Source of the DNA: a virus
Length of the DNA stretch: 22,710 nucleotides
Strand: one strand, 5' to 3'
Virus record (IMG/VR): IMGVR_UViG_3300025282_000263
Span: 1 to 22,710 of that record
The position numbers were made by a program, and so were the translations under genes. A model generated the notes under the pieces. The model saw only the letters and a program-made list of their open reading frames with translations. It was not told the DNA's origin and ran no database searches. Shown here one piece after another: positions 1,465 to 20,400 of the stretch (positions are counted from its first letter, which is position 1; every line of letters begins with the position of its first letter).

Positions 1465-1466
1465 TG

Positions 1467-3938
1467 TCACTTTTTCAGCCCCACGCTCGCCAAGCCCAAC
1501 ACGACCGCCCGCGTCCCGGAGTCCAGGAAGGAGAAGAATTGGTAGGCAGGTAGCTTTTCCGGCAGGGAGAATGAACTGGTAGCACGGCCATCAGGCGATA
1601 CCTCGAAAGAGACCGTCGAGAGGTGTCCTCGAGGCCCCACGCCATCTCGCATCATCGGGGCAGGGCCGACGCGGGTCTGGTCGTCCGGGGCCAGGCCTAC
1701 CTGCACCGGCTGCTGAAGGTCGCTCGAGGCCCGGCCCTCGATGCGGTCAATATATTCTGTCCAGGTCTGCAGGGCATAGGCCTCCGCGACCGCCTTCAGG
1801 TCCTCGCCGGTCTTGTCAAACCGGCCATCGCCAAAGTTCACCACCCTGTTTTGCAGCCTCCTCGAGAGAGACATTCGGTGGTTGAGGGCATCCATTGGGG
1901 TAAATTTCCCCAGGCCGATACCAAATATCTGCTTGGTGTCGTTCACCCCCTCCTCCGTCCAGGCGACGCGGGCCGTCGCCACGCTCGCAGGCACATGAAT
2001 TTCCATAGCAGGCCCCTGGGCATCCCATCCCGCCTCCTTAGCTGCCACCGGCAGCTTCGTGTGGATGTCCTCGAACTTCACCTCGTGAACGAAACACTGC
2101 CCCATATTATTCGGTGCGCCTGGGATGCAGGTCATCACGAACAGGGCCTTCCAATCGGCCTCGAGTTGAGGGAGGCCCCCGCCCGACCTGGCTGCGTCCC
2201 AGGTGATGGGCCGGATGTGTCGCCCCCCGTGCTTGATGTCGTTGGTGGGGTTATTATCTCGGTTCATCGTGCCGGGGATGAACTGAGCATACATTCGCCC
2301 AGGGTCTGGGAGATACTCCACGCTGAAGATGCCCTGCTCGCCATCTGAAATATTCACCATCGCAGGGATGCCACTAGACTTGTTCACATTCACGCGGTCG
2401 TCGTAGCCCTTCACATTCATCAGGAAGAGGTCGCAGTCGGGGTCCCGCATAAAAATTCGCTGGTTGGGGACGATGGAGTAGTCCGCATAGACGCTGGCCT
2501 TCGCCCTGGTCCCGGTGACGGGGTCGAGCATACAGGCCCTCCAGGGCTTAACATCTACGATGCGGTGCAGGAAGAGTTGGGGCAGGCGAAAGGACCTCCG
2601 AAAATGACCCGCGCAGGCCGAGATGCGACCCATCCAGTCAACCTCCGGTATCGCAGCACCCGAGAGAGCCACGAAGCCCCAGGCATCCATAAAGGGAACC
2701 GCCCCGCGCAGGAGGTGGATGAACTTCAACTGTCCAGGGTAGTCCATCCGGTCTGCCCTGGGGCCTCGCTGCAAGGCCCGCCCACCGCCGAGACCGCGAA
2801 CCGCCCCCCACGCCTTAAACAAGTCGTCGTTAATCTCCACCCAGGTCCCCGTCGCCACCTCTCGTTTTTTGCCTGACTCCGTATCTGTGATGGTCAGCTT
2901 ATGGTCAGAGAGGGGGAGGACATTATCTACGATGAAGCCCTCCAACTTTGCATCTGGTGTGATGATGGCGGTGGATGCGCCTGGCCCACCCAGGCCCCGG
3001 AACGAGAACTTCACCTCGGCCTCGTAGGTGAAATTGACCCGCACCGAGGAGGGCCGGGTCATATTGTTTTTCACGAAGTCCAGGTGGCCCGCATTCTCAA
3101 TCTCCATCATATTGTGAGCCGGAGGGACATCAAACTTCTCCCCCTCATCGTGGTCGTTATAGAGGACCACATTCCCCACCGCGTCCACGAACACCTGCAT
3201 TCCGGGGACCTGGGAGATGGCCCTGGCAAGGGCCTGGTCTGCCCGGTCATCAAACTCGATGTTGTCGCTGGTTATGTCTGTGGCCTCGCCCCCCGCGAAC
3301 TGCTGAAAAGACGGTGCTCGCCGGATGTCCCGTATCGCCCGGCCCCCCAGGTTTTCAGCCTCCGGCAGCATACAGTCCTGGTAGACCTCATCGACAATCT
3401 CGTCGTGGCTCCATATCTCCCCATTGTTCAGGCTGTAGTCCCGGTAGCCGTGGTGGTCCAGGGCCGGTCGCAGGTCGTTGCCATCGTCCATCACCCTCTT
3501 CGTACCCGTCCTCATCGTCATATTGAAGCGACGCAGGCACCACCCATACTGCCACCAGTATCGCCGGTCGGCCACGCGAACGGTGACCAGGTGCTTGTTG
3601 GGTCCAGGGAGGAAGTCGACTATGTAGAGCTTGTCGAACACTATCCTTTTCGGCCTGCGATGCCCTGCGACGGACTCTATCTGCAGCTTGATGGACTTCA
3701 TCCGGCCCGCCCCCCGCGTGCCTCCAGGAACAAAGCCTCCGGGGAGGCCCGCCCGCAGGCCCCGTATCCCCGCCTCGAGTATGGCCTTGTCTGCTGGCCT
3801 GATGGAGAACTCCTCGATGACAGGCTCTACGCCAGCCTGAAGCCTCCACCGCACAGACTGCGAGGCCAGGAGGTCGACGCTCGCTTCGCCCGCGATGAGC
3901 TTGCAGGTCGTGGCTGTGGCTATTTGCTCTCTGGGCAT
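1467..3938 (-). CDS. Large tail-tip or baseplate hub-like protein (823 aa)
   Basis: The ATG at 3938 directly abuts the TAA of the upstream gene (TAAATG), so the start is firm by operon logic. The 823-aa product has an N-terminal part (about 1-150) rich in Arg and beta-type segments. The middle, around residues 220-330, carries a pattern typical of hub proteins: a segment of short helices with DDRADQALARAISQ, then a strand-turn-strand FVDAVGNVVLYN. The C-terminal half has long charged stretches. This reminds me of gp27/GpD-type hub domains, but the resemblance is by eye and weak. Its position, after the tape-measure candidate and another tail gene, fits a tail-tip hub. It could equally be a different structural protein of the tip. 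Confidence 0.85.
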   Translation of the reverse strand: MPREQIATATTCKLIAGEASVDLLASQSVRWRLQAGVEPVIEEFSIRPADKAILEAGIRGLRAGLPGGFVPGGTRGAGRMKSIKLQIESVAGHRRPKRIVFDKLYIVDFLPGPNKHLVTVRVADRRYWWQYGWCLRRFNMTMRTGTKRVMDDGNDLRPALDHHGYRDYSLNNGEIWSHDEIVDEVYQDCMLPEAENLGGRAIRDIRRAPSFQQFAGGEATDITSDNIEFDDRADQALARAISQVPGMQVFVDAVGNVVLYNDHDEGEKFDVPPAHNMMEIENAGHLDFVKNNMTRPSSVRVNFTYEAEVKFSFRGLGGPGASTAIITPDAKLEGFIVDNVLPLSDHKLTITDTESGKKREVATGTWVEINDDLFKAWGAVRGLGGGRALQRGPRADRMDYPGQLKFIHLLRGAVPFMDAWGFVALSGAAIPEVDWMGRISACAGHFRRSFRLPQLFLHRIVDVKPWRACMLDPVTGTRAKASVYADYSIVPNQRIFMRDPDCDLFLMNVKGYDDRVNVNKSSGIPAMVNISDGEQGIFSVEYLPDPGRMYAQFIPGTMNRDNNPTNDIKHGGRHIRPITWDAARSGGGLPQLEADWKALFVMTCIPGAPNNMGQCFVHEVKFEDIHTKLPVAAKEAGWDAQGPAMEIHVPASVATARVAWTEEGVNDTKQIFGIGLGKFTPMDALNHRMSLSRRLQNRVVNFGDGRFDKTGEDLKAVAEAYALQTWTEYIDRIEGRASSDLQQPVQVGLAPDDQTRVGPAPMMRDGVGPRGHLSTVSFEVSPDGRATSSFSLPEKLPAYQFFSFLDSGTRAVVLGLASVGLKK

Positions 3939-5480
3939 TTAACCCCTGGGCATTCCAACTTCAAAGGCCACATTCGGAGCGAGGCCAGGTGGCGGGGCAT
4001 TCGCCCTGCCGATAGCCTCAAAGAGGATATCGAGGTTTTCCCCGACCGCACCATTGACATTGACATACTCAATCTCGAAGGTCTCCTGCCTCTGAATGTA
4101 ATAGATGGAGGTTCCCGAGCGACCGATGACCTCTCGGGTATACCGCGTATCCTGTTTTATCGTATAGCCCCCCCTCCGCGTTGGCCTGAAGCCTCCGAAG
4201 GGTAGAGGGTTTCTTCTGCCACCGGGCATCTCGTGCTCAAAATAGCGCATCGATACCACGATGTTCCGGGTCCGTTTCCCCGGCCCCTGGTACACATACT
4301 TCTCCATATTGTTCTCGGCCCAGACCGGAACGGTCGTCCAGCCGGTCCCGTAGGTGTCGGAGACGGTAACGCTGCCCTCGATAGGAAGGCCCTGGGGCTG
4401 CATCCCCTGCAAGGTGATGGACACATCTATCGTGTTGTTCGCCAGGTCGTACTTGGGGGTCTCCTCGACTATCGCCCTGGCCCCTGCGGGCAGGAAGAAG
4501 AGAGCCTCGTCCAGGAGGTACCGCCTTATTTCGGTGTCATACAGGGTTTTCATCTCCCGGCCCAGGTACGCGGAGACTGCGATACCGGCAGAGAAGTTGA
4601 TGGAGACATCCTGCAGGCGACGGATGTTGGCATCCTCTGCCCCCGACATCACCTTCGTGTGGATGGAGAACTGCTGGTCAACGATGTCCGGGTTATCCAG
4701 GACGGCAGCCCCGCCGATGATGGCCCCCGACCCAGAGGCATCGGCTGCGCCCGCCTGCTTAAAGATAATCTCCTGGTAGGTGCGGGAAAACCGGATGACA
4801 TTGCCCTTGCCCTGCTCGCTCGAGCCGTCGCGGGTGTCGTCAACCTCCGCGATAGGCTCATCCGTCAGTTCCCAACACGACGAGGACCCGCCGATAGAGG
4901 TGAGGACCGCGCTGGCCCTGGCTGCTATCTTGTCCTCGTACTGCTCCCTGGCGGTATCCGTCCCCACCGCCGTCCACTCGCCCGAAATGGTGATGGTCCT
5001 GCGCCTCGAGGGGCTATAGGCGACCCCGACGGTCGTGTTTCGCATCCCCTCTCGATGGTTGCTGGTTAGCTGGTCCTGCGGTAATTGCAGGCTAATCGTC
5101 ACGCGGTAGAGGCGGGAGATGGCGGTGTCGGCCTCGTCGCCGTTTTTCGATATGGAGGCCTCGGCATCGTATCCCAGGCTGGCATCGGTCCCGGTGCCGT
5201 CGTGGGTGAAATAGTAGATGACCGCATTGGCATTGCCATCCCCCGCCGTTATCTTTAGGTCTTGGAATGGCTTACGAAGGGCCTCCTCCACCGTCGCTAC
5301 CTCGGTGGCAAACGCCGAGGGGCTTGCTGCCGTAATGAGCAGGTTGAAGTCCAGGCGAAACCCATCCGTGCTTCGCTCCATTGTTATTTTGCCGGCACGG
5401 GAGTCGATACGCCTCCCGCTGGTGTTGCCGAAGGCCACCCCGCCGTACTCAATCTTCAGGTCTCTTAGGCTTTCTGTCAT
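3939..5480 (-). CDS. Tail structural protein, distal-tail position (513 aa)
   Basis: The start at 5480 overlaps the TGA of the upstream gene as ATGA. The 513-aa product is rich in Thr, Ile, Val and Arg and reads as mostly beta strand, with alternating polar/apolar segments such as YGGVAFGNTSGRRI near the N-terminus and SIYYIQRQETFEIEY near the C-terminus. No catalytic motif, signal peptide or membrane helix is visible. It sits right after the tape-measure candidate and right before the hub-like gene, the slot normally taken by a distal tail protein. It is long for a plain distal tail protein, so it may contain extra domains. The assignment is by synteny only. Confidence 0.85.
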   Translation of the reverse strand: MTESLRDLKIEYGGVAFGNTSGRRIDSRAGKITMERSTDGFRLDFNLLITAASPSAFATEVATVEEALRKPFQDLKITAGDGNANAVIYYFTHDGTGTDASLGYDAEASISKNGDEADTAISRLYRVTISLQLPQDQLTSNHREGMRNTTVGVAYSPSRRRTITISGEWTAVGTDTAREQYEDKIAARASAVLTSIGGSSSCWELTDEPIAEVDDTRDGSSEQGKGNVIRFSRTYQEIIFKQAGAADASGSGAIIGGAAVLDNPDIVDQQFSIHTKVMSGAEDANIRRLQDVSINFSAGIAVSAYLGREMKTLYDTEIRRYLLDEALFFLPAGARAIVEETPKYDLANNTIDVSITLQGMQPQGLPIEGSVTVSDTYGTGWTTVPVWAENNMEKYVYQGPGKRTRNIVVSMRYFEHEMPGGRRNPLPFGGFRPTRRGGYTIKQDTRYTREVIGRSGTSIYYIQRQETFEIEYVNVNGAVGENLDILFEAIGRANAPPPGLAPNVAFEVGMPRG

Positions 5481-6187
5481 CTCGGTCCTGTTCCACCCAT
5501 TCCGGTCTTAGCCAATTTCATAAGGGCTGCGCCAAACTGCTCCCCGGCCTTCCGCGTACCGAAGTGCTGCATCCTTAGCAGGTGCTCGTTCCAGGCCTTG
5601 ACCCCGAAGAAGTAATCCTTCACCTCCGAGATGTCCATCGTCTCGCCCGTCAGCAGAGCAGCCTTCTTCGCGTAGTCCAGGGCCGTCATTGACGAGGTGG
5701 CCGTGGCAGCGACCTGCACGGTCAACTCGCCCACCGTGTTCTCCAGGTTCTTGATGGTCTCCTCAACGATGGCCATTATCTTTTTCTCCAGGTATCCCTT
5801 CTCTCTGGGTTTCCCGGTCTCCGGGTCCCTTTCAGGCCCGAAGGACTCCTGTATCATTCCCTGTATGGCCGGGAAAACCAGCCTCTGAATGAAAATGGCG
5901 AGGGCTGCGTATCCCGCAACAGCACCCAGGCTACCCATCCCGACCCCACCTCCAATTTGACCGTGCCGATGGGCGAAGGCCCGCATCCGCGCCTTACCGC
6001 CGACCGCCATCCTGCCCAACATCCCCTCTTTCTTCTGCGCGGTCTTTTTCTTCTTATCGCCCTTCTCACCCTCCTTGCGCTCCGTCTTGAGGTCGCCGTG
6101 CGCCTTCATCATCTCCTTGACCTGCTTTTTCGCATCGGTGGTATCCACGGTCACTCGGATAACAGCATCATCCATTCGCACAGTCAT
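5477..6187 (-). CDS. Short tape-measure-like protein candidate (236 aa)
   Basis: The ATG at 6187 shares one base with the TAA of the upstream gene (TAATG), and the stop overlaps the next start (ATGA). The N-terminus, with VIRVTVDTTDAKKQVKEM, looks like the start of many tape-measure or minor tail proteins. A very basic Lys-rich stretch follows (about 35-70), then a Gly/Ala-rich hydrophobic segment (about 80-115, GAVAGYAALAIFIQRLVFPA) that could be a membrane-active helix, then an amphipathic helical region to the end. If this is the tape measure it is very short; the usual rule of about 0.15 nm of tail per residue gives a tail of only about 35 nm. It could instead be a different helical tail protein, with the real tape measure elsewhere. 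Confidence 0.85.
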   Translation of the reverse strand: MTVRMDDAVIRVTVDTTDAKKQVKEMMKAHGDLKTERKEGEKGDKKKKTAQKKEGMLGRMAVGGKARMRAFAHRHGQIGGGVGMGSLGAVAGYAALAIFIQRLVFPAIQGMIQESFGPERDPETGKPREKGYLEKKIMAIVEETIKNLENTVGELTVQVAATATSSMTALDYAKKAALLTGETMDISEVKDYFFGVKAWNEHLLRMQHFGTRKAGEQFGAALMKLAKTGMGGTGPR

Positions 6188-11105: not shown

Positions 11106-12122
11106 TTAGGTTCCAGGAGCGTTATTTACCTGGCAAGTGGTATAGGGAACAAAGACGAAGAATCCACGGCGACATTCGAAGCGAATCGATTCCTGGCCAG
11201 TCTCCCTCGATAAATCACTGTTTTCCCATGTGGCAGTAACAGTCCTAATCCCTTCCCGGTTCTGAACTCCAAGACTTCTATGCTCGGAGCCGGTGAGGAA
11301 AACGAACCAGTCATTGCCCGTCAGCCTCTGGGTAGTCCAGAGCGTCGGAGCAAGGCCCGCCTCCTGCACGACATTCGTGGGCGTAGAGCTGCCCTCCACG
11401 ACGCGCTCGCGGATGAAGGCCTCTTGGAAGGCCTGTATCTTCGCTGCGGGGTAAATGACCAGGGCCTCACCGTCGGTGACGGAGGGGTTAAACAGGGGCT
11501 GGCCCTCGGTGTCCTGCATCCTGGTGAACCGCGACCGGACATCGTAATAGTCCGTCGTGATAGCAGCCGAGGTCGCCGTGCCACCGGCTGCGCCAGCCGT
11601 GGTCGAACCGTCACCTTCCATATTGCCACCGCTGACACCGAACCGGTTACCCGATGCGACATCGTTCGCGTGGTAGATAGCGCGACCGTCGGGAGCATTC
11701 GGAATGCTCGCCAGGAGGTCGTTATCTGACCCTGCGGTGATAATTTGGAAAGCGATGCGCTCGTTCAAGAGGCCGATGCTGTCACCAAGGTCCCGCGCTC
11801 TCTCGACCAGGGACGAGGTAAGGTCGTCCTCCCGGTCAATCCTGCGCCAGTCGATGGCTCTTCCGAATTCGAAGTTTTCCACTGAGAACTGAATTCCACC
11901 GAAGGCCTTGTGACGGTAGGCCTCACCGCGAGGAAGGCGCACAGCGTGAGGTGCCGAATTCCAGAAAAAGTACTTTTCGATTCTCTTGTCGGAGGGTACT
12001 TCCTTCAGAATTTTGCCTACAAATTCCTGTCTGGCGTCATACTGCCTGCGATACGAATTCAGAGCCTCGCTCCTCAGGCCCGCAGAAAAACTTGCTCCGC
12101 TAGCCACTAACGAACCAGCCAT
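11106..12122 (-). CDS. Major capsid protein, Mu gpT-like (338 aa)
   Basis: The start at 12122 has a GAGAGGAG Shine-Dalgarno. The 338-aa length, the layout and the place (after protease/scaffold and decoration genes, before a strong terminator) fit the Mu gpT family of HK97-fold capsid proteins. Landmarks: EKYFFWNSAPHAVRLPRGEA near residue 50, then FSVENFEFGRAIDWRRIDRE (the N-arm/E-loop side, with the D/E-rich turn REDDLTSS), LNERIAFQII, DGRAIYHAND, a Gly/Ser/Thr-rich insertion at about 168-190, and a C-terminal domain with EALVIYPAAKIQAFQEAFI. Codon use is less GC-rich at third positions than in the neighbours, as expected for a highly expressed gene. About 1.2 kb here carries almost none of the TCCAGG motif that fills the rest of the window. 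Confidence 0.92.
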   Translation of the reverse strand: MAGSLVASGASFSAGLRSEALNSYRRQYDARQEFVGKILKEVPSDKRIEKYFFWNSAPHAVRLPRGEAYRHKAFGGIQFSVENFEFGRAIDWRRIDREDDLTSSLVERARDLGDSIGLLNERIAFQIITAGSDNDLLASIPNAPDGRAIYHANDVASGNRFGVSGGNMEGDGSTTAGAAGGTATSAAITTDYYDVRSRFTRMQDTEGQPLFNPSVTDGEALVIYPAAKIQAFQEAFIRERVVEGSSTPTNVVQEAGLAPTLWTTQRLTGNDWFVFLTGSEHRSLGVQNREGIRTVTATWENSDLSRETGQESIRFECRRGFFVFVPYTTCQVNNAPGT

Positions 12123-12139: not shown

Positions 12140-12637
12140 TTACCCAATTAATGAGCCAGCGTGCGTGATGAAGGGGAACAGGTGGACATCGCCGGTGCCG
12201 GAAGTCCCGGAGTACCTGGTGACGATACCAATCTCTGTCGACCCTGTGGTCGCCGTCAGCGTCAAAGTGTTGTCATCGGATGCGTACACGACATCGCAGA
12301 CATCGTTGATGTTATCCAGGCCCGCGACGGTCGCGTTCTTGATAATCGGCCCAGAGATGTCGACCTCAATTTCCAGGGTCCCGTCGCCGGTGACCTTGTC
12401 ATCGGTTCCATCGCCTGAGTTCTGGTCGGTGATGCGAGCCATCCCGACAAATATCATCTCGCCGGTAACGTCCGGTCCCCAGTTCTGGGCATAGCCGTCC
12501 GTGCTCAAACTACCACCACCAGCCTTGGTCACGCCGACTAAGGCTCCGTCAAAAATGACCTCTCCCGACAGCACGACGAGGGCAATCTTTAACCCGCCCG
12601 GCTGAAATTCGTATGAGGCTCTTGCTGCAAGTGCCAT
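12140..12637 (-). CDS. Head decoration-like protein (165 aa)
   Basis: The ATG at 12637 is preceded by GGAG, and the TAA of the protease gene lies in the same few bases. The 165-aa protein is beta-rich with Gly/Thr/Asp loops: LKIALVVLSGEVIFDGALV, then GEMIFVGMARIT, an acidic loop (about 72-90) and DNTLTLTATTGSTEIGIV. Small beta proteins between the protease/scaffold and the capsid gene are usually capsid cement or decoration proteins (for example DUF2190-type), and this one fits in size and order. The exact family is not certain. Confidence 0.85.
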   Translation of the reverse strand: MALAARASYEFQPGGLKIALVVLSGEVIFDGALVGVTKAGGGSLSTDGYAQNWGPDVTGEMIFVGMARITDQNSGDGTDDKVTGDGTLEIEVDISGPIIKNATVAGLDNINDVCDVVYASDDNTLTLTATTGSTEIGIVTRYSGTSGTGDVHLFPFITHAGSLIG

Positions 12638-12640
12638 TAT

Positions 12641-13477
12641 TTACTCCTTAACACTCAGGTTTTCCCGGATGTGGTCTTCACGCGATACCCGGAAGTCGAA
12701 GCCGGTAGCCTTCAGGCTATCGTATTCGTGGGCCAGTTTCCTGGCTTTCTCCAGGGTCCCAGGACCCATCTCCGCAAATTTCATAACATCGGACTCGGCC
12801 TCGCTCTTCGCGCTGCCCTCCAGGGACTCAAAGGTCGAGGCGGGGTCACGCGGTGCGTGCTGCTTGTAGCTCTCGGTGAACTTCAGCACGGATGCCTGGG
12901 GGTTTTTCGCCCCTGTAGCAATCTCCCTCATCGCTGCCACGGCAGAGGTGGGGACGGACCAGCCTGAGTCTCTCAGGCTCTGCGTCGCACCCCGGATGAG
13001 GGCATTCATACTGTCGGTGTCTTGGCGGGCTTTCTGCTCCGTCTCCAGGGCAGCGACCCGTCCAGCGAGTTCTGCTAACATCGCGGTTTTCCCTCCTCTG
13101 TAGTGCTTGTTGCCCATCAATGGAATGGGCAGGTCCTCTTCCTCGTCCTCATTGTCTTCCTCTTGAAGCTCAATGGGGAGAGGCTCTTCTTCCTCCAAGG
13201 GCGCGTCCAGGGCCTCCTCGATACCTCCCCCTTCGGCGGGGATGAGGCCGTCCAAATATGACCCGATGAGGTCCGGTAGCTGGCCCTGAAACTCAGCTAT
13301 GAGTTCAGCGACCTGCTGTGCGATGGCATCCGTACCCTCTTGCAGTTTGATGGAATCGTCGTCCGAATCATCGTCGTCCTTCTTTTTTCCGTTTCCGTTA
13401 TCGTCGCCATTGCCATTGGCAAACTTCTGCCTACGGCCTCGGCGGGTGGCGAGTTCGGTCTTGGTATCCCTCGGCAT
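12641..13477 (-). CDS. Nested scaffold protein from an internal start (278 aa)
   Basis: The internal ATG at 13477 (codon 197 of the protease gene, protein start MPRDTKTELATRRG) has an excellent Shine-Dalgarno, CAGGAGAAAAAG, nearly the same as the one before the 654-aa gene. The full-length start at 14065 has none. Translation from here gives a 278-aa protein with basic start, acidic middle and helical C-terminus, without the protease domain. In lambda (C/Nu3) and related phages the same arrangement makes the free scaffold in excess over the protease. The role is by analogy; the start signal is seen directly. Confidence 0.78.
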   Translation of the reverse strand: MPRDTKTELATRRGRRQKFANGNGDDNGNGKKKDDDDSDDDSIKLQEGTDAIAQQVAELIAEFQGQLPDLIGSYLDGLIPAEGGGIEEALDAPLEEEEPLPIELQEEDNEDEEEDLPIPLMGNKHYRGGKTAMLAELAGRVAALETEQKARQDTDSMNALIRGATQSLRDSGWSVPTSAVAAMREIATGAKNPQASVLKFTESYKQHAPRDPASTFESLEGSAKSEAESDVMKFAEMGPGTLEKARKLAHEYDSLKATGFDFRVSREDHIRENLSVKE

Positions 13478-14065
13478 CTTTTTCTCCTGAAACCTAAACA
13501 AGAGAGCCGACTCACCTCGCATTGCTACGAGAGGCGACATCTCATCTTCAAAAGTACAAGCTCCCACTTCTTCAAATGGGGCTGGTCTTATTTCACTTAC
13601 ATTAAGTAGCGGTAATTTATACCACGGGGCCTCGTCACTTAACAGGGCGAGACTTGAAATTTCTGGTGGCCGGTCCCAGGAGGATATCTCCACGCTGCGA
13701 TAGGCGAGGTCGTTGTTTTGAATTGCCTCCAGGTGCTCTTCCTTCAGACCGACGATGTCAGCCAGGAGCGCGGGGACTTGGAGGCCGTCCTGCATCACGC
13801 TGCCGACCTCGGTGGGACGGAGGAAACCGATGCGCGGGGTCTCGCGCCCGAGGTCGTGGTGGTTCAAGTGACAAGGAGCCAAATACCCCTGGTCCTTCTC
13901 GAGCATAGCGTGCCTGCGAAGGCAGGAGCGAAACCACTCGGTCGAAATTATCTCGTCATTCTCCCGCGAGCCTTCAGGCAGCTCGGCCATAATCGGCACG
14001 CCCTTAATGGTGAAGGTGCCGTCGTGGTTCTGCTCTGCGATGTAGTTGCCACCGGGAATTGTCAT
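12641..14065 (-). CDS. Prohead protease fused to scaffold (474 aa)
   Basis: Residues 1 to about 165 look like a phage prohead protease of the Mu/U35 or S78 type: FTIKGVPIMAELPEGS, a histidine-rich motif YLAPCHLNHHDLG (His66, His69, His70), IGFLRPTEVG, then AYRSVEIS with Ser124 as the likely nucleophile. Residues 197-474 are the scaffold: a basic start, an Asp/Lys run, acidic blocks (about 280-320) and long helices with LAELAGRVAALETEQKA. Protease-scaffold fusion with a nested scaffold start is classic for this head type. The ATG at 14065 has no Shine-Dalgarno; the promoter at 14075-14102 would start transcription only a few bases before it, suggesting a leaderless mRNA. The gene for MuF, which normally stands just upstream, is separated from it here by a 2-kb plus-strand island. 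Confidence 0.9.
   Translation of the reverse strand: MTIPGGNYIAEQNHDGTFTIKGVPIMAELPEGSRENDEIISTEWFRSCLRRHAMLEKDQGYLAPCHLNHHDLGRETPRIGFLRPTEVGSVMQDGLQVPALLADIVGLKEEHLEAIQNNDLAYRSVEISSWDRPPEISSLALLSDEAPWYKLPLLNVSEIRPAPFEEVGACTFEDEMSPLVAMRGESALLFRFQEKKMPRDTKTELATRRGRRQKFANGNGDDNGNGKKKDDDDSDDDSIKLQEGTDAIAQQVAELIAEFQGQLPDLIGSYLDGLIPAEGGGIEEALDAPLEEEEPLPIELQEEDNEDEEEDLPIPLMGNKHYRGGKTAMLAELAGRVAALETEQKARQDTDSMNALIRGATQSLRDSGWSVPTSAVAAMREIATGAKNPQASVLKFTESYKQHAPRDPASTFESLEGSAKSEAESDVMKFAEMGPGTLEKARKLAHEYDSLKATGFDFRVSREDHIRENLSVKE
13484..13488 (-). promoter_or_regulatory. Internal ribosome-binding site for the scaffold
   Basis: AGGAG on the minus strand, six bases before the internal ATG at 13477. 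It lies inside the protease reading frame and is stronger than any signal at the start of the full-length gene, so it decides for an internal start. Confidence 0.75.
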
Positions 14066-14074
14066 CGTGAGGAA

Positions 14075-14102
14075 ATTCTACGCTCCATCGAGCAGTTGTC
14101 AA
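14075..14102 (-). promoter_or_regulatory. Minus-strand sigma70-type promoter for protease/scaffold and capsid genes
   Basis: On the minus strand: TTGACA (14097-14102, perfect -35), 16-base spacer, TAGAAT (14075-14080, 5 of 6 matches to TATAAT). The start point would fall at about 14066-14069, one to four bases before the ATG at 14065. This would restart transcription of the capsid block after the plus-strand island. Confidence 0.72.
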
Positions 14103-14124
14103 TTGGCGAGTTTACGAGTAATAT
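14096..14124 (+). promoter_or_regulatory. Plus-strand promoter of the island, sharing the -35 box
   Basis: On the plus strand: TTGTCA (14096-14101), 17-base spacer, TAATAT (14119-14124). The -35 is the other strand of the minus-strand promoter's TTGACA, shifted by one base, so two RNA polymerases would compete for the same hexamer. The start would be near 14131, leaving a leader of about 74 bases with two hairpins. Confidence 0.6.
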
Positions 14125-14158
14125 TTCCTGCGGATGGGTTTTCGCCCGTCTGTCCTTT

Positions 14159-14190
14159 GCGGGTCACCTCTTCGGAGGTGGCCCGTTTTA
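14159..14190 (+). terminator. Attenuator-like hairpin in the leader of the first island gene
   Basis: Stem GGGTCACCTC/GAGGTGGCCC (one G-T pair) closed by a TTCG tetraloop, followed by GTTTTA. It has intrinsic-terminator form but lies between the plus-strand promoter and the start codon at 14205, eight bases before the Shine-Dalgarno. A weaker hairpin (GATGGG/CCCGTC) lies just upstream at about 14133-14150. This could be a transcription attenuator, or it could end a short RNA of about 60 bases. The T-run is short, so leakage is likely. Confidence 0.6.
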
Positions 14191-14204
14191 ATCCAGGAGC
14201 AAAG

Positions 14205-14717
14205 ATGAAGCAGAGAATTGTCGACCTCGACAATATGAAGGTAGACCCCGCCAGGCGTATCGCCCTGACCGACCGGGAGCTTTGTCGGCAGTGCGGTATC
14301 GAGTCGGACCTGATGCGTGCGCTGGTTCGTGCGCGGGCTATGCACAAGGCCGGTCCCTGCGAGACGGCCATTTTCGGTGGCCTCTGCTCTGAGGAGGTCG
14401 CTGCCCTGGCTATCTCCTCCTACCTAATTCAGCGCGAAGGGATGCCCATCGATGTCGCCTCCCATCTGGTGAGCCAATTGAGCCACGCCCTCCTCGAGGC
14501 CACCAAGGGTCTCCGGGTCGTAGCGATTATCATCGAGCAGAACAAAGGGTCGCAGGTCGCGGTCCAGGGCGGGCGCGGGGATATCGAAATTCCCAAGGCC
14601 CTCGCTCCCTACACCACGCTCATCGATGCGACCGTCCTGCGCGACCGCTATGAAGAGGCACTTGGCGACTCCACGCTCAAGTTCCCGAAACCCAAAGAGG
14701 CCATCGTCAAGCGATAG
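14205..14717 (+). CDS. Island protein 1, unknown function, possible HTH (170 aa)
   Basis: I choose the ATG at 14205 with the Shine-Dalgarno AGGAGC; a longer frame from 14046 would have to read through the promoter and the hairpin. The 170-aa product has a segment at about 24-50, LTDRELCRQCGIESDLMRAL, that looks like a helix-turn-helix of MerR-like pattern, then hydrophobic helices (EEVAALAISSYLIQREGM, LVSQLSHALLEATKGL) and a C-terminal part with mixed charge. If the HTH is real the protein could control the divergent promoter pair just upstream; this is inference. It reads opposite to all head genes around it. No close family recognised. Confidence 0.85.
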   Translation: MKQRIVDLDNMKVDPARRIALTDRELCRQCGIESDLMRALVRARAMHKAGPCETAIFGGLCSEEVAALAISSYLIQREGMPIDVASHLVSQLSHALLEATKGLRVVAIIIEQNKGSQVAVQGGRGDIEIPKALAPYTTLIDATVLRDRYEEALGDSTLKFPKPKEAIVKR

Positions 14718-14756
14718 CCGTCCAGGGGCAGCGTCGGGGCCACACACCGCAGGATA

Positions 14757-14786
14757 AAATACCTGAAGTTAAAGGGTATTTGTTTT
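14757..14786 (+). terminator. Weak terminator-like hairpin after island gene 1
   Basis: AAATACC/GGTATTT forms a 7-bp A/T-rich stem with an 11-base loop, followed by GTTTT. The stem is weak, so termination would be partial. Confidence 0.4.
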
Positions 14787-14812
14787 GCAATAAAAGCCCC
14801 AAGAGGCATAAT
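14785..14812 (+). promoter_or_regulatory. Possible second island promoter
   Basis: TTGCAA (14785-14790), 16-base spacer, CATAAT (14807-14812). It starts right at the T-run of the weak hairpin and would drive the five small genes that follow. The -10 box overlaps an ATG at 14811, which speaks against using that ATG as the start of the next gene. A small GGGGC-AAA-GCCCC hairpin follows at 14837-14849. Confidence 0.42.
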
Positions 14813-14864
14813 GACGGCAGTTGAACAACACCACGCGGGGCAAAGCCCCAGAAAGGACAGACGG

Positions 14865-15194
14865 ATGAAAGACGAGAGAGACCTTTTTAACGCCCGGATG
14901 GGAAAAAGGCTGGCCGAGGACATTAATGCGAAGGTCGCGGAGCTTCGCAGCCTGGTCGAGAGCGCAGACCTTACCTTCAGAAACCGAGAGACCAGAGACT
15001 GCAAGCCCCAGGCCATTGGCCTCGAGGCATTTCTCGAACAGTACAACCTCGGCAGGCTCGACACGGAGCTCTCGGCCCTCGCCAGCCGGAACACCCGGAC
15101 GGCTGAAGAGCGACGCATCGCTCGGAACGAGACAGGGCTTGAGGACTGGCATTGCGAGGAGGTCGCAGACTCCTTGAGTAAGCTGACTCGCTAA
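14865..15194 (+). CDS. Island protein 2, unknown, helical (109 aa)
   Basis: The ATG at 14865 is preferred over the in-frame ATG at 14811 because it carries GGACAGACGG directly before it, the same start context as the next gene, and because the earlier ATG lies in a possible -10 box. The 109-aa product is charged and mostly helical (GKRLAEDINAKVAELRSLVE, then AFLEQYNLGRLDTELSAL), with one Cys in each half and no membrane segment. No family recognised. It is the first of five closely packed plus-strand genes. Confidence 0.75.
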   Translation: MKDERDLFNARMGKRLAEDINAKVAELRSLVESADLTFRNRETRDCKPQAIGLEAFLEQYNLGRLDTELSALASRNTRTAEERRIARNETGLEDWHCEEVADSLSKLTR

Positions 15195-15207
15195 CGCGGA
15201 AACCAAT

Positions 15208-15228
15208 GGGGGTCCAGGACGGACCCCC
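15208..15228 (+). other. Perfect hairpin between island genes 2 and 3
   Basis: GGGGGTCC, loop AGGAC, GGACCCCC: an 8-bp perfect stem nine bases before the GGAGGACAG ribosome-binding region of the next gene. There is no T-run, so it is not an intrinsic terminator. It may stabilise or process the mRNA, or control translation. A similar short hairpin lies before gene 2. Confidence 0.7.
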
Positions 15229-15248
15229 ACAACCCGGAGGACAGACGG

Positions 15249-15446
15249 ATGACCATTTTCAAACTTGCGACGCTGATGAAGCTGAAGCCCTCGGAGGCCA
15301 TTGCCCTGCCCGCAGTCTTAGACAAGGCTGCTGCGGTCGCGGAAACCTCCAGGCAGGCCGTCATTGACAAGGCCATATGCCTTCCGGCCCTGCGAGACTA
15401 CCTTGGCAAGGTCTGCAAGACCGTAATGGAAAGGATGAACGGATGA
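15249..15446 (+). CDS. Island protein 3, unknown (65 aa)
   Basis: The start at 15249 has the context CGGAGGACAGACGG. The 65-aa product is Ala-, Leu- and Lys-rich and helical (MTIFKLATLMKLKPSEAIAL, then VAETSRQAVIDKAICL). Its stop overlaps the next start as ATGA, which supports translation. Its first three codons, ATGACCATT, are the same as those of the next gene. No family recognised. Confidence 0.72.
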   Translation: MTIFKLATLMKLKPSEAIALPAVLDKAAAVAETSRQAVIDKAICLPALRDYLGKVCKTVMERMNG

Positions 15447-15721
15447 CCATTAGCAATGCGATGCAGAGCGACGCGGAGCGCAGGATGCAACAATTGAAGA
15501 GGAACGGCGGTCAGGCCAGAGCGAACCGCATCAACCAGGCAGCGAAAGAACTCCTCTCGCTCCTGGGGGAGGCGAACCGCATCCTCGACAACGAGCCGGA
15601 CGGACCACACGCCAGAGGCATTAATGGCTGGCTGGACATCAAGGTGCTCTCTGAGGTGGAGAGCAAGGCCGAGGCACTCAGGGCCTACCATAACCAGACC
15701 AAAGAAAGGACGGACGGATGA
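15443..15721 (+). CDS. Island protein 4, unknown, helical (92 aa)
   Basis: The ATG at 15443 overlaps the previous TGA (ATGA) and follows AAAGGATGAACGG. The 92-aa product is basic at the start (DAERRMQQLKRNGGQARANR), then helical with LLSLLGEANRIL and a charged C-terminus. It could be a small nucleic-acid-binding or coiled-coil protein; nothing more specific can be seen. The stop overlaps the next start (ATGA). Confidence 0.78.
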   Translation: MTISNAMQSDAERRMQQLKRNGGQARANRINQAAKELLSLLGEANRILDNEPDGPHARGINGWLDIKVLSEVESKAEALRAYHNQTKERTDG

Positions 15722-15942
15722 GCGACGAGAAACGGAAACTCTTTAGTGTTCACGACATATTAATAATGCGATGCCCCCACCTCGAGGGGACGGAGCATTA
15801 CGAGAGCCGGGTAAACTTCCGGGGCTACACCACGAACCGGTCGGATGCGGGAACCGCGAAGTGTGTGGTTTTCCCCGTAGATGGATGCCTGCAGATAGAG
15901 GTCGATGCCGAATGGCTGTCCAGGGAGGGCGACGATGCCTGA
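15718..15942 (+). CDS. Island protein 5, unknown (74 aa)
   Basis: The start at 15718 overlaps the previous TGA (ATGA) and has the context AAAGGACGGACGG. The 74-aa product looks globular: a polar N-terminus, HDILIMRCPHLEGTEHY, and a strand-rich second half with KCVVFPVDGCLQIEVDAEW. Three cysteines and three histidines are spread out and do not form a clear zinc site. No family recognised. Confidence 0.75.
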   Translation: MSDEKRKLFSVHDILIMRCPHLEGTEHYESRVNFRGYTTNRSDAGTAKCVVFPVDGCLQIEVDAEWLSREGDDA

Positions 15943-16270
15943 CGAGAGATGGGCCTCCACCAAAGGCGGGTGTCGCGGGTTCGCAAGTTACTACGGGCCG
16001 TGCGGGGACCCGTTTTGCAGTAGTTGTTTTCCAGGCGGGCAGGTCTGTCGCCAATGCGGAGAGCTTCGCGGGGACTGCGAATGTGACAATTGCGAGTCGT
16101 GCGGGTGCGCCTGGCAGACGGAGTTCGAGGGGCAGGGATACGAGGTCTGCCCCTATTGCCATTGCGAGGACTGCGGGGACACCGAAAAGGGCTGCGAATG
16201 TAAAACCGGGTTCAACAACGGCGACCCCAAGACCAACGACGAGAAGAGGAAGGAGAAAGGCTCGCCCTAA
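15935..16270 (+). CDS. Island protein 6, cysteine-rich, likely zinc-binding (111 aa)
   Basis: I choose the ATG at 15935 with GGGAGGGC before it; it overlaps the previous stop by eight bases. The 111-aa product has 17 cysteines, all between residues 13 and 89, many as CxxC or CxC pairs: CSSC (28-31), CRQC (38-41), CEC (48-50), CESC (53-56), CPYC (72-75), CEDC (77-80), CEC (87-89). This suggests several zinc-ribbon or rubredoxin-like knuckles; a strongly reducing cytoplasmic fold is also possible. The C-terminal 20 residues are Lys/Asp/Glu-rich and disordered-looking. The TAA at 16268-16270 overlaps the TAG of MuF on the other strand (shared CTAA). No close family recognised. Confidence 0.82.
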   Translation: MPDERWASTKGGCRGFASYYGPCGDPFCSSCFPGGQVCRQCGELRGDCECDNCESCGCAWQTEFEGQGYEVCPYCHCEDCGDTEKGCECKTGFNNGDPKTNDEKRKEKGSP

Positions 16271-17370
16271 CCGCCGAGCCGGTCGGCCACGCCCTGCCAC
16301 GCCTCCGAAGGAGCCTGTGGTCCAGGCGGGCCGGAGTAGGGTTGAGGTCCAGGCCCCGAACCGAAACCGGGGTCTGGGCCTCCTTTCATCGTTTTGCCGG
16401 TCGCCGGGTCCCGCACGCCTGAGTAGAACTTCTGCGGGATGAGGGTTTTCACGATGCTTGTTTTCTCGTCCAGGAGGCCCTTCCTCTTTAACTGCCCCCG
16501 CGACATCGAGATGAAGGAGCACCGGCAGTTATGCCCCAAGGGTATCGACAGGCTCTTCCATATCGGTGCGTCGTGCGGAGCCACGATGCCGTCGCACGCC
16601 AGGTGGTTCCCGCGTGCGGAGTCGTCATTGATGGCACTATACATTTTCGCCGGGATTACATAGCCCACCACCGGGTCCTCTTGGACCTGGGCATCCCGTC
16701 CCTGGGTATAGGCTCGCTTCATATTATTGCGAAATACGACTTCAGAATACGAGGCTGAAAAACCCTGCATATCGGCCATCGCCGTTTCAAACTGACTGCC
16801 CGTCAGACCCCCTTGCATAGACCTCACCAGGGCCTCCTGGGTCGTGGCCGTCATCCGCATCGCCGTTTCCAGGCGACCCGTCAGGGCGAGGTCGGCTGCG
16901 CGGGCCAGGCCGAAGGCGTGCTCGGTTTGGTACATCCGCTGGACCGCCATATACAGGGGTTCGTTTCCCCTGGGAACCGCGAGGGACGGGACCCGCGTCG
17001 CAAGGTCCTCCGCTGCCTGTTGGAAACTCACCGTCGTCAGGCCGGGAACATCGTAGGGCCTCCAGGGTAGCCGGTGCGGGGTCCTTGCAGAGGTCTGCAT
17101 CGGACGCTCGGCAAAGTACATCTTGGCCTCCGCAGACTCCCGACTCTCCACCGCCTCGGCCTCCAGGACCGACCGCCGACGACCGAGGAGGTCACCCCAC
17201 GCCATCATATCGCCAAAGAGCACCGCCAGCTTATCCAGGCTGCGGTCTCGCCTCTCCGGGTTCGCGGAGGCGATGGCCCTGATGTGCTGCGTCAAGGCAT
17301 CGGAGAAGTCCCCGATGGCCTTGCCCTCGAGCATATCAAATTCGGCATCCGGCGTTCGTAATTTCTTCAC
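16267..17370 (-). CDS. Minor head protein, MuF family (367 aa)
   Basis: The start is a GTG at 17370 behind a full GGAGGAG Shine-Dalgarno, inside the 3' end of the GT8 gene (35-base overlap). The C-terminal half shows the MuF signature: FRNNMKRAYTQGRDAQV (213-229), VVGYVIPAKMYSAINDD, then RGNHLACDG (253-261), IWKSLSIPLGHNCRCSF (270-286). The N-terminal 200 residues are helical. A Pro/Gly-rich tail (about 325-360) follows the domain; no toxin domain is attached. MuF proteins sit inside the capsid near the portal and take part in head morphogenesis. Here the gene is the last of the upstream head block before the plus-strand island. Confidence 0.93.
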   Translation of the reverse strand: MKKLRTPDAEFDMLEGKAIGDFSDALTQHIRAIASANPERRDRSLDKLAVLFGDMMAWGDLLGRRRSVLEAEAVESRESAEAKMYFAERPMQTSARTPHRLPWRPYDVPGLTTVSFQQAAEDLATRVPSLAVPRGNEPLYMAVQRMYQTEHAFGLARAADLALTGRLETAMRMTATTQEALVRSMQGGLTGSQFETAMADMQGFSASYSEVVFRNNMKRAYTQGRDAQVQEDPVVGYVIPAKMYSAINDDSARGNHLACDGIVAPHDAPIWKSLSIPLGHNCRCSFISMSRGQLKRKGLLDEKTSIVKTLIPQKFYSGVRDPATGKTMKGGPDPGFGSGPGPQPYSGPPGPQAPSEAWQGVADRLGG

Positions 17371-18127
17371 TTATCTCCTCCAGGTACGCAGGCTGGCATC
17401 GGGCCAGGCACTCACGAATGTTAACATAGAATGGCGAGGCTACGAGGTCCGATGGTTTCACCGCGCCCGCCTTGCACGCTGCCACCAACTCGTCCACCCA
17501 TATCTTCTCCAGGGGATGAACCTGCGTTACCCTCCAGGGCTGCGTCTTGAGCATAGTGTAGTGCAGGTTTTTCGTTACGCCCTCCTCGTAGTGGTCGCGG
17601 TGGTTCCACTCTTCGGGCAATTCGCCCAGGCCCTCGAGAGGCATAAAGTTAGTGCTGCCCCACATCTCGTGGTATCGCATCTCTCCGCTATCCACCTTAT
17701 CGCGGATATCCCAGGCGTTCCAATTCTGCGTGAATTCGTGACCGCAGTCGATGAGCATTACGCTCGGGTCCGGGGTCCGCAGGACGGCCCGACTCTCATT
17801 GGGATGGGCCTGAAAGTCTATCGTCGGGATGTTGTAGAGCTTCGCAATGTTATCCAGGATAACCATATCGGAGTCGAGGTAGATGGCCTTTCCCTGGTAT
17901 CCGCACAGTTCCGGTATCCACCACCGCACCAGGCTGAACTGCGTCGGGTTACGATGCACCTCGAACATCGGCCTCTCCAGGTCGTGCGTGTGGATGATGA
18001 CGACCTCCTTATCCCAGGTCCGCTGGCGAATGGAAAACTCCGTCACCAGGGCCGGGACCTTATCATCCGCGCCCCCGCCGATTACGATACGCGGGATGAG
18101 CTCTTTGTCCTTTGCTCGTTTAAACAT
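17336..18127 (-). CDS. Glycosyltransferase, GT8-like (263 aa)
   Basis: The start at 18127 has GGAGG and AGAGGA upstream and overlaps the GT9 gene by 46 bases. The key motif is FSLVRWWIPELCGYQGKAIY followed by LDSDMVIL: the DxD at Asp85-Asp87 would hold the metal and nucleotide-sugar, and the hydrophobic strand before it is typical of GT-A fold family 8 (glycogenin/LgtC type). The N-terminal strand RIVIGGGADD and the later EGVTKNLHYT region are consistent. Its donor and acceptor cannot be read from the sequence. It is one of four sugar-related genes placed between the portal-side genes and MuF; capsid or host-surface glycosylation are the obvious options. Confidence 0.85.
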   Translation of the reverse strand: MFKRAKDKELIPRIVIGGGADDKVPALVTEFSIRQRTWDKEVVIIHTHDLERPMFEVHRNPTQFSLVRWWIPELCGYQGKAIYLDSDMVILDNIAKLYNIPTIDFQAHPNESRAVLRTPDPSVMLIDCGHEFTQNWNAWDIRDKVDSGEMRYHEMWGSTNFMPLEGLGELPEEWNHRDHYEEGVTKNLHYTMLKTQPWRVTQVHPLEKIWVDELVAACKAGAVKPSDLVASPFYVNIRECLARCQPAYLEEISEEITNAGCRI

Positions 18128-18900
18128 TCCTCTAAACAGCCTCCTACGATAAAGGGTTTAATTGACTCCATCTTCGCCCGGCAATGCTCGCAGTCCTTCC
18201 TGCTCCCGCAGGGCGTATCGTCGTCCTCGACATAGATGTTCTCGTGGATATCATACCCCACATTCTTCGGAGATGAAAAGCCCCCCCAGATAACCACGCC
18301 CGGTACGCCCAGGGCAGCAGCAGCGTGATGCAGACCCCCGTCGGTCGTTACGATAGCTGCAGCGTGCCGGAGGACCGCGCAGGCGATACGGAAATTCGGG
18401 GTCGCCACCCTGACTGCGCCCTCGAGGATGGGTTTGCCATAATCGCATTGAGCGACCTCCAGGTCGTAGAGGACACTCATCAGGGCCACCCAGTTATGCC
18501 AGCCCCAGTCTTTATTGGTGGCTGCAAAGCCCCCCTTGATGTGAGGCTCCACGACGATGAATTGCTTACGCTCGAGGCCCGCGTCTTTCATCGCTTTCGC
18601 GGAGGCCACCTCCTCGATGTGGTTAAAGAACAACTCTCCAGGCTCGGCCCGCCAATCGGTGAAGGCGCAGCGTCCATTGACGCTGTTGGGGTAGTCGATG
18701 TAGGGCCGGTGGCCCGTGTAGTTTTTGACCCAGATGTCTCCGGGCCGAGGACTCCCGACCCGGCAGAGGTGAGGGGAATGGTCAAACACCGGAGACCACA
18801 TCGCGGTCGTCCCGTCGCCTACCCAGATACGCTTGTCGGGGTTTTCCAGGCGGGCCTGCCGTATCTGGGCCGTCGCCATAATGTCGTCGCCGTATCCCAT
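18082..18900 (-). CDS. Glycosyltransferase, GT9/heptosyltransferase-like (272 aa)
   Basis: The ATG at 18900 overlaps the previous TGA by two bases (TGATG). Landmarks of family 9: GYGDDIMATAQIRQAR at the very N-terminus (the GxGD loop), FIVVEPH and NKDWGWHNWVALM in the middle (114-140), and VTTDGGLHHAAAALGVPGVV (184-203) followed by IWGG, the donor-binding signature. The C-terminal CGSRKDCEHC (231-240) resembles the cysteine cluster of heptosyltransferases. At 272 aa it is shorter than the usual 330-350, mainly through a short N-terminal domain. GT9 enzymes transfer heptose or related sugars; the acceptor here is unknown. Together with the neighbouring GT8 and DUF115-like genes it forms a cassette. 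Confidence 0.88.
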   Translation of the reverse strand: MGYGDDIMATAQIRQARLENPDKRIWVGDGTTAMWSPVFDHSPHLCRVGSPRPGDIWVKNYTGHRPYIDYPNSVNGRCAFTDWRAEPGELFFNHIEEVASAKAMKDAGLERKQFIVVEPHIKGGFAATNKDWGWHNWVALMSVLYDLEVAQCDYGKPILEGAVRVATPNFRIACAVLRHAAAIVTTDGGLHHAAAALGVPGVVIWGGFSSPKNVGYDIHENIYVEDDDTPCGSRKDCEHCRAKMESIKPFIVGGCLEECLNEQRTKSSSRVS

Positions 18901-19676
18901 CAGCTAAACTTTCCCAGGTCAGGCCTGGTGTAGGGAGAGATGTCCTCTGGCTCCGGTAGAGCCTCCAGGCCCCTCTCGTTTTTCTGTCTCTGGTAGTCCT
19001 CCTCCGCGTGACCGCAGCCGAGGAATGGCGTGAGGGTCAGGACGGAGACCCCGACGCTCCGCAGGCGTTTCCTGGTGTCGGATGCGTCGTCCCGATACTC
19101 TTTATAGGCATCCTCGGGCGAGGCCCCGCACCACCGGATGTGCTGCTCGTGCGCGTGATGCTCCCCGTCCAGGTCGGTCATATCGCAGCCGACGACGATG
19201 ACGGTTTTCGCGCCCATCCGGGCTGCGAGCCACATCGCGGAGTTGTGAACTCCGTGCGCCTGGTAGAGCCTGTTGTCGGAGCCACCGGTCGAGAGCAGCG
19301 CAGGCTCGTCCAGGGCCTGCGCCCCTTGCACCGGGTCGAAAACATAGTGCTCACAGTGCTGCGCGGAAAACCAGATGTCGTGTTTTCTTTTATGGCCGGT
19401 CTCCGGGTGAGTCGTGTATCGCACCGCTGACCTCTTACGCATACTCGTCACCACCCACTTCGTGGGGTTCGCTCCCTCCGCGAGGTTATGGTCCCAGAGG
19501 TGCTCCGGGTGAACGGTGATGCTGTAGGTCATCGGGGCATACCGCCACGCCTGGTTGAGGCCGATGGTCGTCTTGTCCTCCAGGAAGTCTATGGGGAAAA
19601 GCCTCTGCGAGGGGCCGGTCCCGACGATGTAAATGGTCTCTCCTGGGTGCTTACCCCACAGGTCGAATGCAAACAT
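18900..19676 (-). CDS. DUF115/MptE-like protein, second copy (258 aa)
   Basis: The ATG at 19676 lies inside the end of the previous gene (26-base overlap). The N-terminal TIYIVGTGPSQRLFPIDFL and TIGLNQAW match the pattern of the DUF115/MptE-like family (nucleotide-binding GxGxS loop, then the G-hN step), and GAKTVIVVGCDMTDLDGEHH (155-174) is the later conserved strand with a Gly-Cys-Asp. Members include Maf-type flagellin glycosyltransferases and many phage proteins next to glycosyltransferases. It is only distantly like the neighbouring copy at 19651-20400, so the pair is more likely two specialised members than a recent duplication. The reaction is unknown. Confidence 0.82.
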   Translation of the reverse strand: MFAFDLWGKHPGETIYIVGTGPSQRLFPIDFLEDKTTIGLNQAWRYAPMTYSITVHPEHLWDHNLAEGANPTKWVVTSMRKRSAVRYTTHPETGHKRKHDIWFSAQHCEHYVFDPVQGAQALDEPALLSTGGSDNRLYQAHGVHNSAMWLAARMGAKTVIVVGCDMTDLDGEHHAHEQHIRWCGASPEDAYKEYRDDASDTRKRLRSVGVSVLTLTPFLGCGHAEEDYQRQKNERGLEALPEPEDISPYTRPDLGKFS

Positions 19677-20400
19677 CGGTCGTCTTTCGTTTGTCTATCT
19701 CGTGGGGCTCCGGGGCAGGCGGTAAAACATCATCGTAGCTCAGGGAGGGGAACGCGTCCGCGCCCGACGGCGGGGCATCCGGGTCGCGGAGGTGGAAGGC
19801 TTTACCCTCTAACTGTCCCACCAGGGCATTCAAAGTGCGCCTGAACTTATTATACATACACTCCGCTGTTCCCCATTCCTCCGGGTATCGCTCGTGCCAG
19901 TTAGAGGCTATGGGTGTTTTGTAGCAGTCGAAACCGAGCAGGTAGATGGGGGAGGCTCCCAGGATGTCGGCAAGGTTGAGGCAGACGGCCCCGGAGAAAC
20001 TGAATGCAGCCACGCCCTCCTCCAGGCTGCGCCCCCACGCACGCGGTTTCCCGACGGGGAGTTTCCAGGTCGTCGCCACAGTCTCGGGCTTCAGCATCCC
20101 CGTGCTCGCCTGCTCGCTCACGACATTGTGAACCAGGCGCATCGACGGGAGCTTCAGCCAGGACCCCTCCTTCTCGACCATCTGCATAAACCGGATGTCG
20201 GCAGCGTAGGCTATCGTCGGAGGAGGCTCGAGATACATTCCGGCATTGATGCCGATGGTAAGCTCGCCCGCGAGACGGGTGAAGTCAAAGCCCTGCAGGG
20301 AGGTTCCCCCGCCGACGATAAAGGCCGAGTGTCCTCTCCAGGCCCTCTCCGGCATCGCCTCGCATATCGGCCTGATGAAGTTGCAGGTATTCGCGGGCAT
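19651..20400 (-). CDS. DUF115/MptE-like protein, first copy (249 aa)
   Basis: The start at 20400 is not strong (AAGG 14 bases upstream); an internal Met16 is possible. The family pattern is clear: HSAFIVGGGTSLQGFDFTRL (24-43), ELTIGINAG (46-54), then ADIRFM and a later strand SPIYLLGFDCY (150-160). The enzyme class includes 6-hydroxymethylpterin diphosphokinase MptE and Maf glycosyltransferases; in phages it is common beside sugar genes. As first gene of the cassette it probably works on the same sugar or acceptor as the GT9 and GT8 enzymes. Soluble, no membrane segment. Confidence 0.83.
   Translation of the reverse strand: MPANTCNFIRPICEAMPERAWRGHSAFIVGGGTSLQGFDFTRLAGELTIGINAGMYLEPPPTIAYAADIRFMQMVEKEGSWLKLPSMRLVHNVVSEQASTGMLKPETVATTWKLPVGKPRAWGRSLEEGVAAFSFSGAVCLNLADILGASPIYLLGFDCYKTPIASNWHERYPEEWGTAECMYNKFRRTLNALVGQLEGKAFHLRDPDAPPSGADAFPSLSYDDVLPPAPEPHEIDKRKTTDVCIRPVG

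Follow-up and report, generated by a model that had tools for sequence, protein, structure and literature searches.

A divergent promoter region with mirror-image arms between the capsid unit and an antiparallel gene island of a phage: a possible control point for a MerR-like regulator

Introduction

A single late regulator is usually credited with switching on the late genes of a phage. The DNA analysed here is a 22,710-bp virus record in IMG/VR (hereafter the window), in which a small gene cluster running in the opposite direction lies beside a capsid unit. The late genes of the window are encoded on the minus strand and include a Mu F-like head gene (muF, 16267-17370; PF04233, E 1.5e-16) and the gene of the major capsid protein (11106-12122; a PHROG major head protein that also matches PF25209 with an E of 8e-5, below the curated cut-off). 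Between muF and the first gene of the capsid unit, an island of six small genes (i1 to i6, 14205-16270) is carried on the plus strand, antiparallel to both flanks, and the 139-bp gap that separates the capsid unit from i1 contains the predicted promoters of both directions. A sequence-only reading of this gap had proposed that the two promoters, sharing one -35 box, form a simple either/or switch operated by RNA polymerase itself, on which the first island protein could also act.

Gene Organization around the Divergent Gap

The capsid unit is composed of three minus-strand genes, the first of which (12641-14065) gave no family match and is labelled protease/scaffold-like by its position, as is the small decoration-like gene that follows it (12140-12637); the third encodes the major capsid protein. 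Directly past this last gene, and ahead of the next structural gene, stands a very strong intrinsic terminator (11087-11059, minus strand; d=61.8), which closes the unit. Only one other strong intrinsic terminator was found in the window, in the plus-strand leader, and the convergent ends of i6 and muF overlap without any terminator. On the plus strand, i1 (14205-14717) encodes a MerR-like candidate regulator whose homologues in other phages are likewise divergent at this junction, and the remaining island genes (i2 to i6, 14865-16270) are without database relatives; the product of i6 (15935-16270, plus strand) is a small cysteine-rich protein with no relatives in the libraries searched. A block of sugar-metabolism-looking genes is also found within the head module (17336-20400, minus strand), with one weak Glyco_transf_8 match (E 2.8e-4).

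An overlapping contig of the same phage (L021) adds about 5.4 kb past the right end of the window; methyltransferase/ParB-like, terminase-like and portal-like genes were recognized by eye in its positions 1-5600. No near relatives of the phage were found in phage records, by DNA or by capsid protein, or among GTDB genome contigs, and the matches in IMG/VR were confined to contigs of this same phage, either identical or overlapping. A second IMG/VR contig (L003) carries the promoter region without any difference.

Two Predicted Divergent Promoters with a Common -35 Box

The capsid-side promoter reads TTGACA-16-TAGAAT on the minus strand (-35 at 14102-14097, -10 at 14080-14075) and agrees with the sigma70-type consensus at 11/12 positions. 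On the plus strand, the island-side promoter TTGTCA-17-TAATAT (-35 at 14096-14101, -10 at 14119-14124) agrees at 9/12 positions. The two -35 hexamers have the five positions 14097-14101 in common and the joint box spans 14096-14102. A distance of 38 bp separates the -10 elements, and the starts predicted from them, near 14068 and 14131, are about 63 bp from each other.

The minus-strand site is far above chance: dinucleotide shuffling produced an 11/12 site in 2/60 versions of the whole window, and shuffling of the 139-bp intergenic region did so in 0.04% of 5000 cases. No shuffle contained a divergent pair that overlaps (0/60 for the window, 0/5000 for the intergenic region). When TTGTCA was kept fixed, an equal or better -10 at a distance of 16-18 nt was obtained in 579/5000 shuffles, so the plus-strand promoter is not significant alone and draws its support from its symmetry with the minus-strand one. 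Both promoters were thus found where the sequence-only reading had placed them, and its proposal of a divergent control region between the capsid block and the island is supported. Another promoter-like site (TTTGCA-17-CATAAT) occurs between i1 and i2 (14784-14812, plus strand).

Mirror-Image Arms and Predicted Leaderless Starts

Together the two promoters form an imperfect inverted repeat; each 19-nt arm encompasses the -10 element, a TTCCT motif and an ATG, and 14/19 positions match between the left arm (14063-14081, minus strand; GTAGAATTTCCTCACGATG) and the right arm (14118-14136, plus strand; GTAATATTTCCTGCGGATG). Such symmetry was reached in 1/20000 shuffles in that register and in 5/300 in any register. 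On both strands the ATG lies exactly 9 nt past the -10 element, with 68 nt between the two ATGs, and the starts predicted at 14068 and 14131 would therefore leave a leader of about 3 nt on each side, so that both transcripts look leaderless. Start codons adjoining -10 boxes have been reported as common in Deinococcus-Thermus (PMC12340547).

The minus-strand ATG is the start of the first capsid-unit gene, which cannot begin further upstream because the TAG within the minus -10 element is an in-frame stop. The gene starts without a proper Shine-Dalgarno sequence: its own is the third weakest among the 26 genes of the window, the two weaker ones belonging to genes that overlap or abut the upstream gene, and it is the weakest among those of the 26 that do not abut one. 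The mRNA of the capsid unit is probably leaderless, judging from these start signals.

The same start was compared in distant phages gathered via capsid and F-like alignments, the F-like set consisting of the 80 best of 233 loci; among 103 sequences (102 loci and the window), 90 had protease-like matches. Removal of 25 redundant loci left 65, of which 63 had a usable start. With starts picked to favour a Shine-Dalgarno sequence, and with lacking defined as none better than -4.5 kcal/mol, a good Shine-Dalgarno was absent from 30/63 non-redundant first capsid-unit genes versus 3/48 major capsid genes (Fisher p 1e-6), and in paired comparison it was weaker in the former in 37/47 cases (p 1e-4). 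Against the muF genes the difference was not significant (30/63 versus 15/48, p 0.12). Leaderless spacing of a -10-like hexamer was seen ahead of 4 of the 30 capsid-unit genes lacking a Shine-Dalgarno, the window being one of the four (0.4 expected), and ahead of none of the 33 that have one or of the 48 major capsid genes.

The i1 Family at the Capsid Junction

Full-length homologues of i1, 26-28% identical, are encoded in L035/L036 and L041, in each case as the single opposite-strand gene in the gap between the F-like and capsid genes. A wider scan located i1 homologues head-to-head with the capsid-unit gene at 9 loci from 5 lineages, counting the window (L103); the others are L104-L106, L107-L109, L110 and L111, the latter being the same as L041. 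The capsid-unit gene is the putative target of i1. Dyads were detected in 3/5 of the other-phage intergenic regions tested, in addition to the window, with chance levels of 0/1000 shuffles for L107, 0/1000 for L110 and 15/1000 for L111; in 2 of the 6 regions tested, the window being among the six, namely L104 and L105, no dyad was found. In L111 the capsid side carries TTGACA-15-TAGGAT-6-ATG, and on the other side TACGAT-7-ATG was recognized by eye, again in a mirror-like arrangement; the exact gene starts are uncertain for L107 and L110. In the middle of the L110 divergent gap (2926-3013) there is a perfect 18-bp palindrome, GTATGGAAATTTCCATAC, a possible operator.

Searches with i1 itself gave no match in Pfam or PHROGs, and the search for near relatives yielded just three weak matches to it (E 0.5-0.7). 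Two leads were discarded: a PDB sequence search matched nothing but a designed PPR repeat protein, whose per-domain scores were meaningless, and a profile search returned ribosomal S13 only (E 0.45 or worse). Among the homologues, MerR_1 was matched by the L111 protein over profile positions 5-68 of 69 with an E of 0.0039, below the curated cut-off, and by the L107 protein with an E of 0.17. The structure of i1 was modelled with AlphaFold2 from the homologue alignment (pLDDT 72.7; the model made without alignment, with a pLDDT of 39, was unusable). In a Foldseek search of the PDB, the MerR-type repressor CvkR ranked first (E 0.11, prob 0.80), and VIA-align superposed the model on CvkR with a Z of 7.1 (rmsd 3.8, 125/148 residues), values near 7 being middling scores, and on the CueR-DNA structure with a Z of 4.1. 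From the model and the homologues, i1 is probably MerR-like, though not proven to be so. The helix-turn-helix-like segment that the sequence-only reading had noticed in the first island protein finds support in a conserved divergent family, in the MerR_1 match of one homologue and in the predicted fold being nearest to CvkR.

The gap between F-like and capsid genes often carries a small gene, which in many phages reads as ribbon-helix-helix or HTH, labels that were initially assigned by eye. Pfam matches of 27 hand-picked junction proteins (E<=0.1, one member being able to match several families) include NikA-like 6, HTH_38 3, RHH_1 2 and MerR_1 1, and the gap gene of L014 matches MerR with an E of 1.2e-5. 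Several ORFs run on the opposite strand in the corresponding gap of L026 (4917-7465), and one of them is 254 aa long. In a more distant phage (L019), a 66-aa HTH-like peptide (1317-1514, minus strand; HTH_17, E 0.021) is divergent from a capsid-unit gene that has a GTG start without Shine-Dalgarno; a direct BLASTP comparison of i1 with the divergent region of L019 found nothing, the frame compared differing from that of the peptide.

The Plus-Strand Leader: Open Reading Frame, Predicted Terminator and Putative Antisense Element

A 24-codon leader ORF (14134-14208, plus strand) precedes i1, its TGA overlapping the i1 ATG as ATGA, and i1 also has an AGGAG of its own besides this coupling. Two hairpins are predicted inside the leader ORF (z -5.4), one at 14131-14152 and the other, with a UUCG loop followed by TTTTAAT, at 14160-14185 (both on the plus strand). 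The latter scores as an intrinsic terminator with d=22.7, a value reached in 1/20 shuffled windows, and the ORF runs through it from 14134 to 14208, as in leaders of the pyrBI type.

Located in the same leader is a putative anti-RBS element, CCGTCTGTCCTTT (14146-14158, plus strand), whose end sits between the two hairpins and whose UCCUUU part is unpaired in the predicted fold. This element is the exact 13-nt complement of the RBS/start cassette of i2, AAAGGACAGACGG (14852-14864, plus strand), is complementary over 11 exact nucleotides to the RBS cassette of i3 (15236-15248, plus strand) and over 12/13 to that of i5 (15705-15717, plus strand). The start regions of i3, i5 and i2, in this order, are the best predicted binding sites of the leader RNA (top 3 of 25 genes, with i1 left out as cis), and i6 and i4, ranking ninth and eleventh, are not favoured. 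A 13-nt antisense match arises in 1/2000 shuffled leaders; the start cassettes are repeats of each other, and the three antisense matches are consequently not independent. The repeated cassettes of i2 to i5 (AGGACAGACGGATGA and variants) extend over 14850-15731, some with a small hairpin ahead. These leader features are known from one phage, and the leader gave no match in Rfam. Among other contigs, L022 showed a single match to the start-cassette pattern, and L020, which is AT-rich and has a single cassette, was discarded as a seemingly chance match.

A Proposed Local Capsid Regulator versus Alternative Readings

The hexamers, their symmetry, the ATG spacing, the terminators, the complementarity and the homology and position of i1 can all be read directly from the sequence; from them we infer the transcription starts, the binding of i1, regulation, attenuation and antisense action. 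On this basis we give about an even chance to the view that the region is the control point of a local capsid regulator, in which the MerR-like i1 governs both directions and this phage has, as a peculiarity of its own, an attenuator in the leader. In the leftward direction, the near-consensus sigma70-type promoter would produce an mRNA that is leaderless from the first capsid gene, and transcription of the capsid unit (protease/scaffold-like gene, small gene and major capsid gene) would stop at its own terminator. In the rightward direction, the mirror-image promoter would give another leaderless mRNA, with the leader ORF crossing the terminator hairpin and being ATGA-coupled to i1. A dimer of i1 may bind the dyad between the promoters, setting the balance of both directions and limiting its own synthesis, by analogy with CvkR at cas12k. 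The island genes would be read through only if ribosomes translated the leader and blocked the terminator; otherwise a leader RNA of about 60 nt would be freed, whose exposed UCCUUU/anti-RBS segment could dampen i2, i3 and i5.

The either/or switch of the sequence-only reading needs no protein, RNA polymerase on one promoter simply shutting out the other. With a 5-bp -35 overlap and starts only 63 bp apart, two holoenzymes would indeed clash, but the promoters are of unequal strength (11/12 versus 9/12) and, with a conserved DNA-binding-like gene lying divergently at the junction, control by a protein is more likely. Moreover, in the E. coli bidirectional promoters reported in PMC12825309, polymerase competition was described only once one direction was strongly activated, all five (5/5) being too weak at basal activity for it. 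A simple either/or switch does not follow from the -35 overlap, and passive occlusion as the whole explanation is improbable, even if polymerase exclusion may add to the control that i1 would exert. It is rather unlikely, though less so, that the gap holds two ordinary independent promoters, one housekeeping the capsid unit and the other serving a moron-like accessory cluster, whose overlap would simply reflect the shortness of the gap. Transcription of two divergent genes with 139 bp between them has to begin somewhere, and since i6 and muF overlap without a terminator a separate promoter benefits the capsid unit; the mirrored arms, in which the ATG stands at equal spacing, and the recurrent position of the i1 family suggest a regulated region instead. 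The hexamers would be mere look-alikes if the host used another sigma factor and the real starts lay elsewhere, a reading left room by the lack of any relative in genome or phage collections, and yet one of low probability given an 11/12 match in the right place, a -10 at leaderless distance in three relatives besides the window and the TTGACA-15-TAGGAT-6-ATG of L111.

For the leader, a competing account, on the unlikely side, is that the hairpins merely stabilize or insulate the island mRNA and that duplication of start cassettes, with inversion of one copy, gave rise to the antisense match as a side effect. The mutual repetition of the i2 to i5 cassettes, which deprives the matches of independence, speaks for it, as does the restriction of the leader to a single case lacking covariation, whereas the hairpin followed by TTTTAAT scores as a terminator (d=22.7, 1/20 shuffled windows) and the UCCUUU part of the antisense element is unpaired. 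Two known classes were set aside: a lambda-type immunity switch, which is defined by two divergent regulators repressing each other, as the minus-strand unit is structural (major capsid protein, with a first gene that belongs to the head module of relatives), and a Grainger-type bidirectional promoter, which is defined by starts 7-25 bp apart and a common -10, the -10 elements here being 38 bp apart and the -35 common.

Comparison with Known Systems

The local regulator reading finds its closest counterpart in CvkR and cas12k of the type V-K CAST of Anabaena 7120, where, according to the report describing them, both mRNAs are leaderless, the start codons lie 82 nt apart and CvkR acts as a repressor (PMC9938897). 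In both systems a small MerR-type regulator sits beside its target with two leaderless mRNAs (regulator type, target and leaderless starts all being predicted in our case), the start codons are at comparable distances (82 nt versus 68 nt here), and the regulators reported for CAST systems are of several DNA-binding types (PMC9938897), as they are at the muF/capsid junction. The differences are that the target here would be a capsid unit and not Cas12k, that CvkR and i1 share about 10% sequence identity over the aligned folds, and that the regulator of the window stands behind a leader ORF and a terminator, its binding being predicted. The cI/cro region of the telomere phage PY54 likewise presents divergent phage promoters whose mRNAs both begin at AUG, but both products are described as immunity-switch repressors (PMC4488713), whereas one product here is structural. 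Divergent leaderless pairs are already known, from PY54 (PMC4488713) and from CAST systems.

In the pyrBI operon, a ribosome following close behind the polymerase in pyrL suppresses the terminator within the leader ORF (PMC5021804, PMC4824070). The phage leader resembles it in that an ORF is transcribed through an intrinsic terminator (PMC5021804), and differs in its leaderless initiation, its phage origin, its extra antisense segment and the lack of a known effector; attenuation here is putative. With the bidirectional promoters of E. coli and Salmonella the region shares a sequence symmetry that lets polymerase face both ways, although those reported have a common -10 and starts 7-25 bp apart (PMC12825309, PMC10268837), as opposed to a common -35 and about 63 bp here. 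In the open-licence literature, we found no published case of a capsid unit under the control of a divergent MerR-like gene, nor of a leader being at once ORF, terminator and antisense.

Significance

A broader proposal, which we put forward as speculative and hold to be unlikely as it stands, is that phages with Mu F-like/capsid modules keep an exchangeable local controller (MerR-like, ribbon-helix-helix or HTH) between the F-like gene and a leaderless capsid unit, as a feedback switch apart from the late programme; here the operon would also be gated by a leader ORF translated through a terminator, the aborted leader becoming an antisense RNA against the later genes of the same operon. In bringing together leader, terminator and antisense, the 75-nt segment offers a compact example of coupled control that lends itself to testing. 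Judging by the resemblance to CvkR/cas12k, a divergent small regulator plus a leaderless target may be a recurrent module of mobile elements. If the reading is true, the presence of a conserved DNA-binding-type gene in the head module, next to a capsid unit that has its own leaderless promoter and terminator, would point to local tuning of capsid output.
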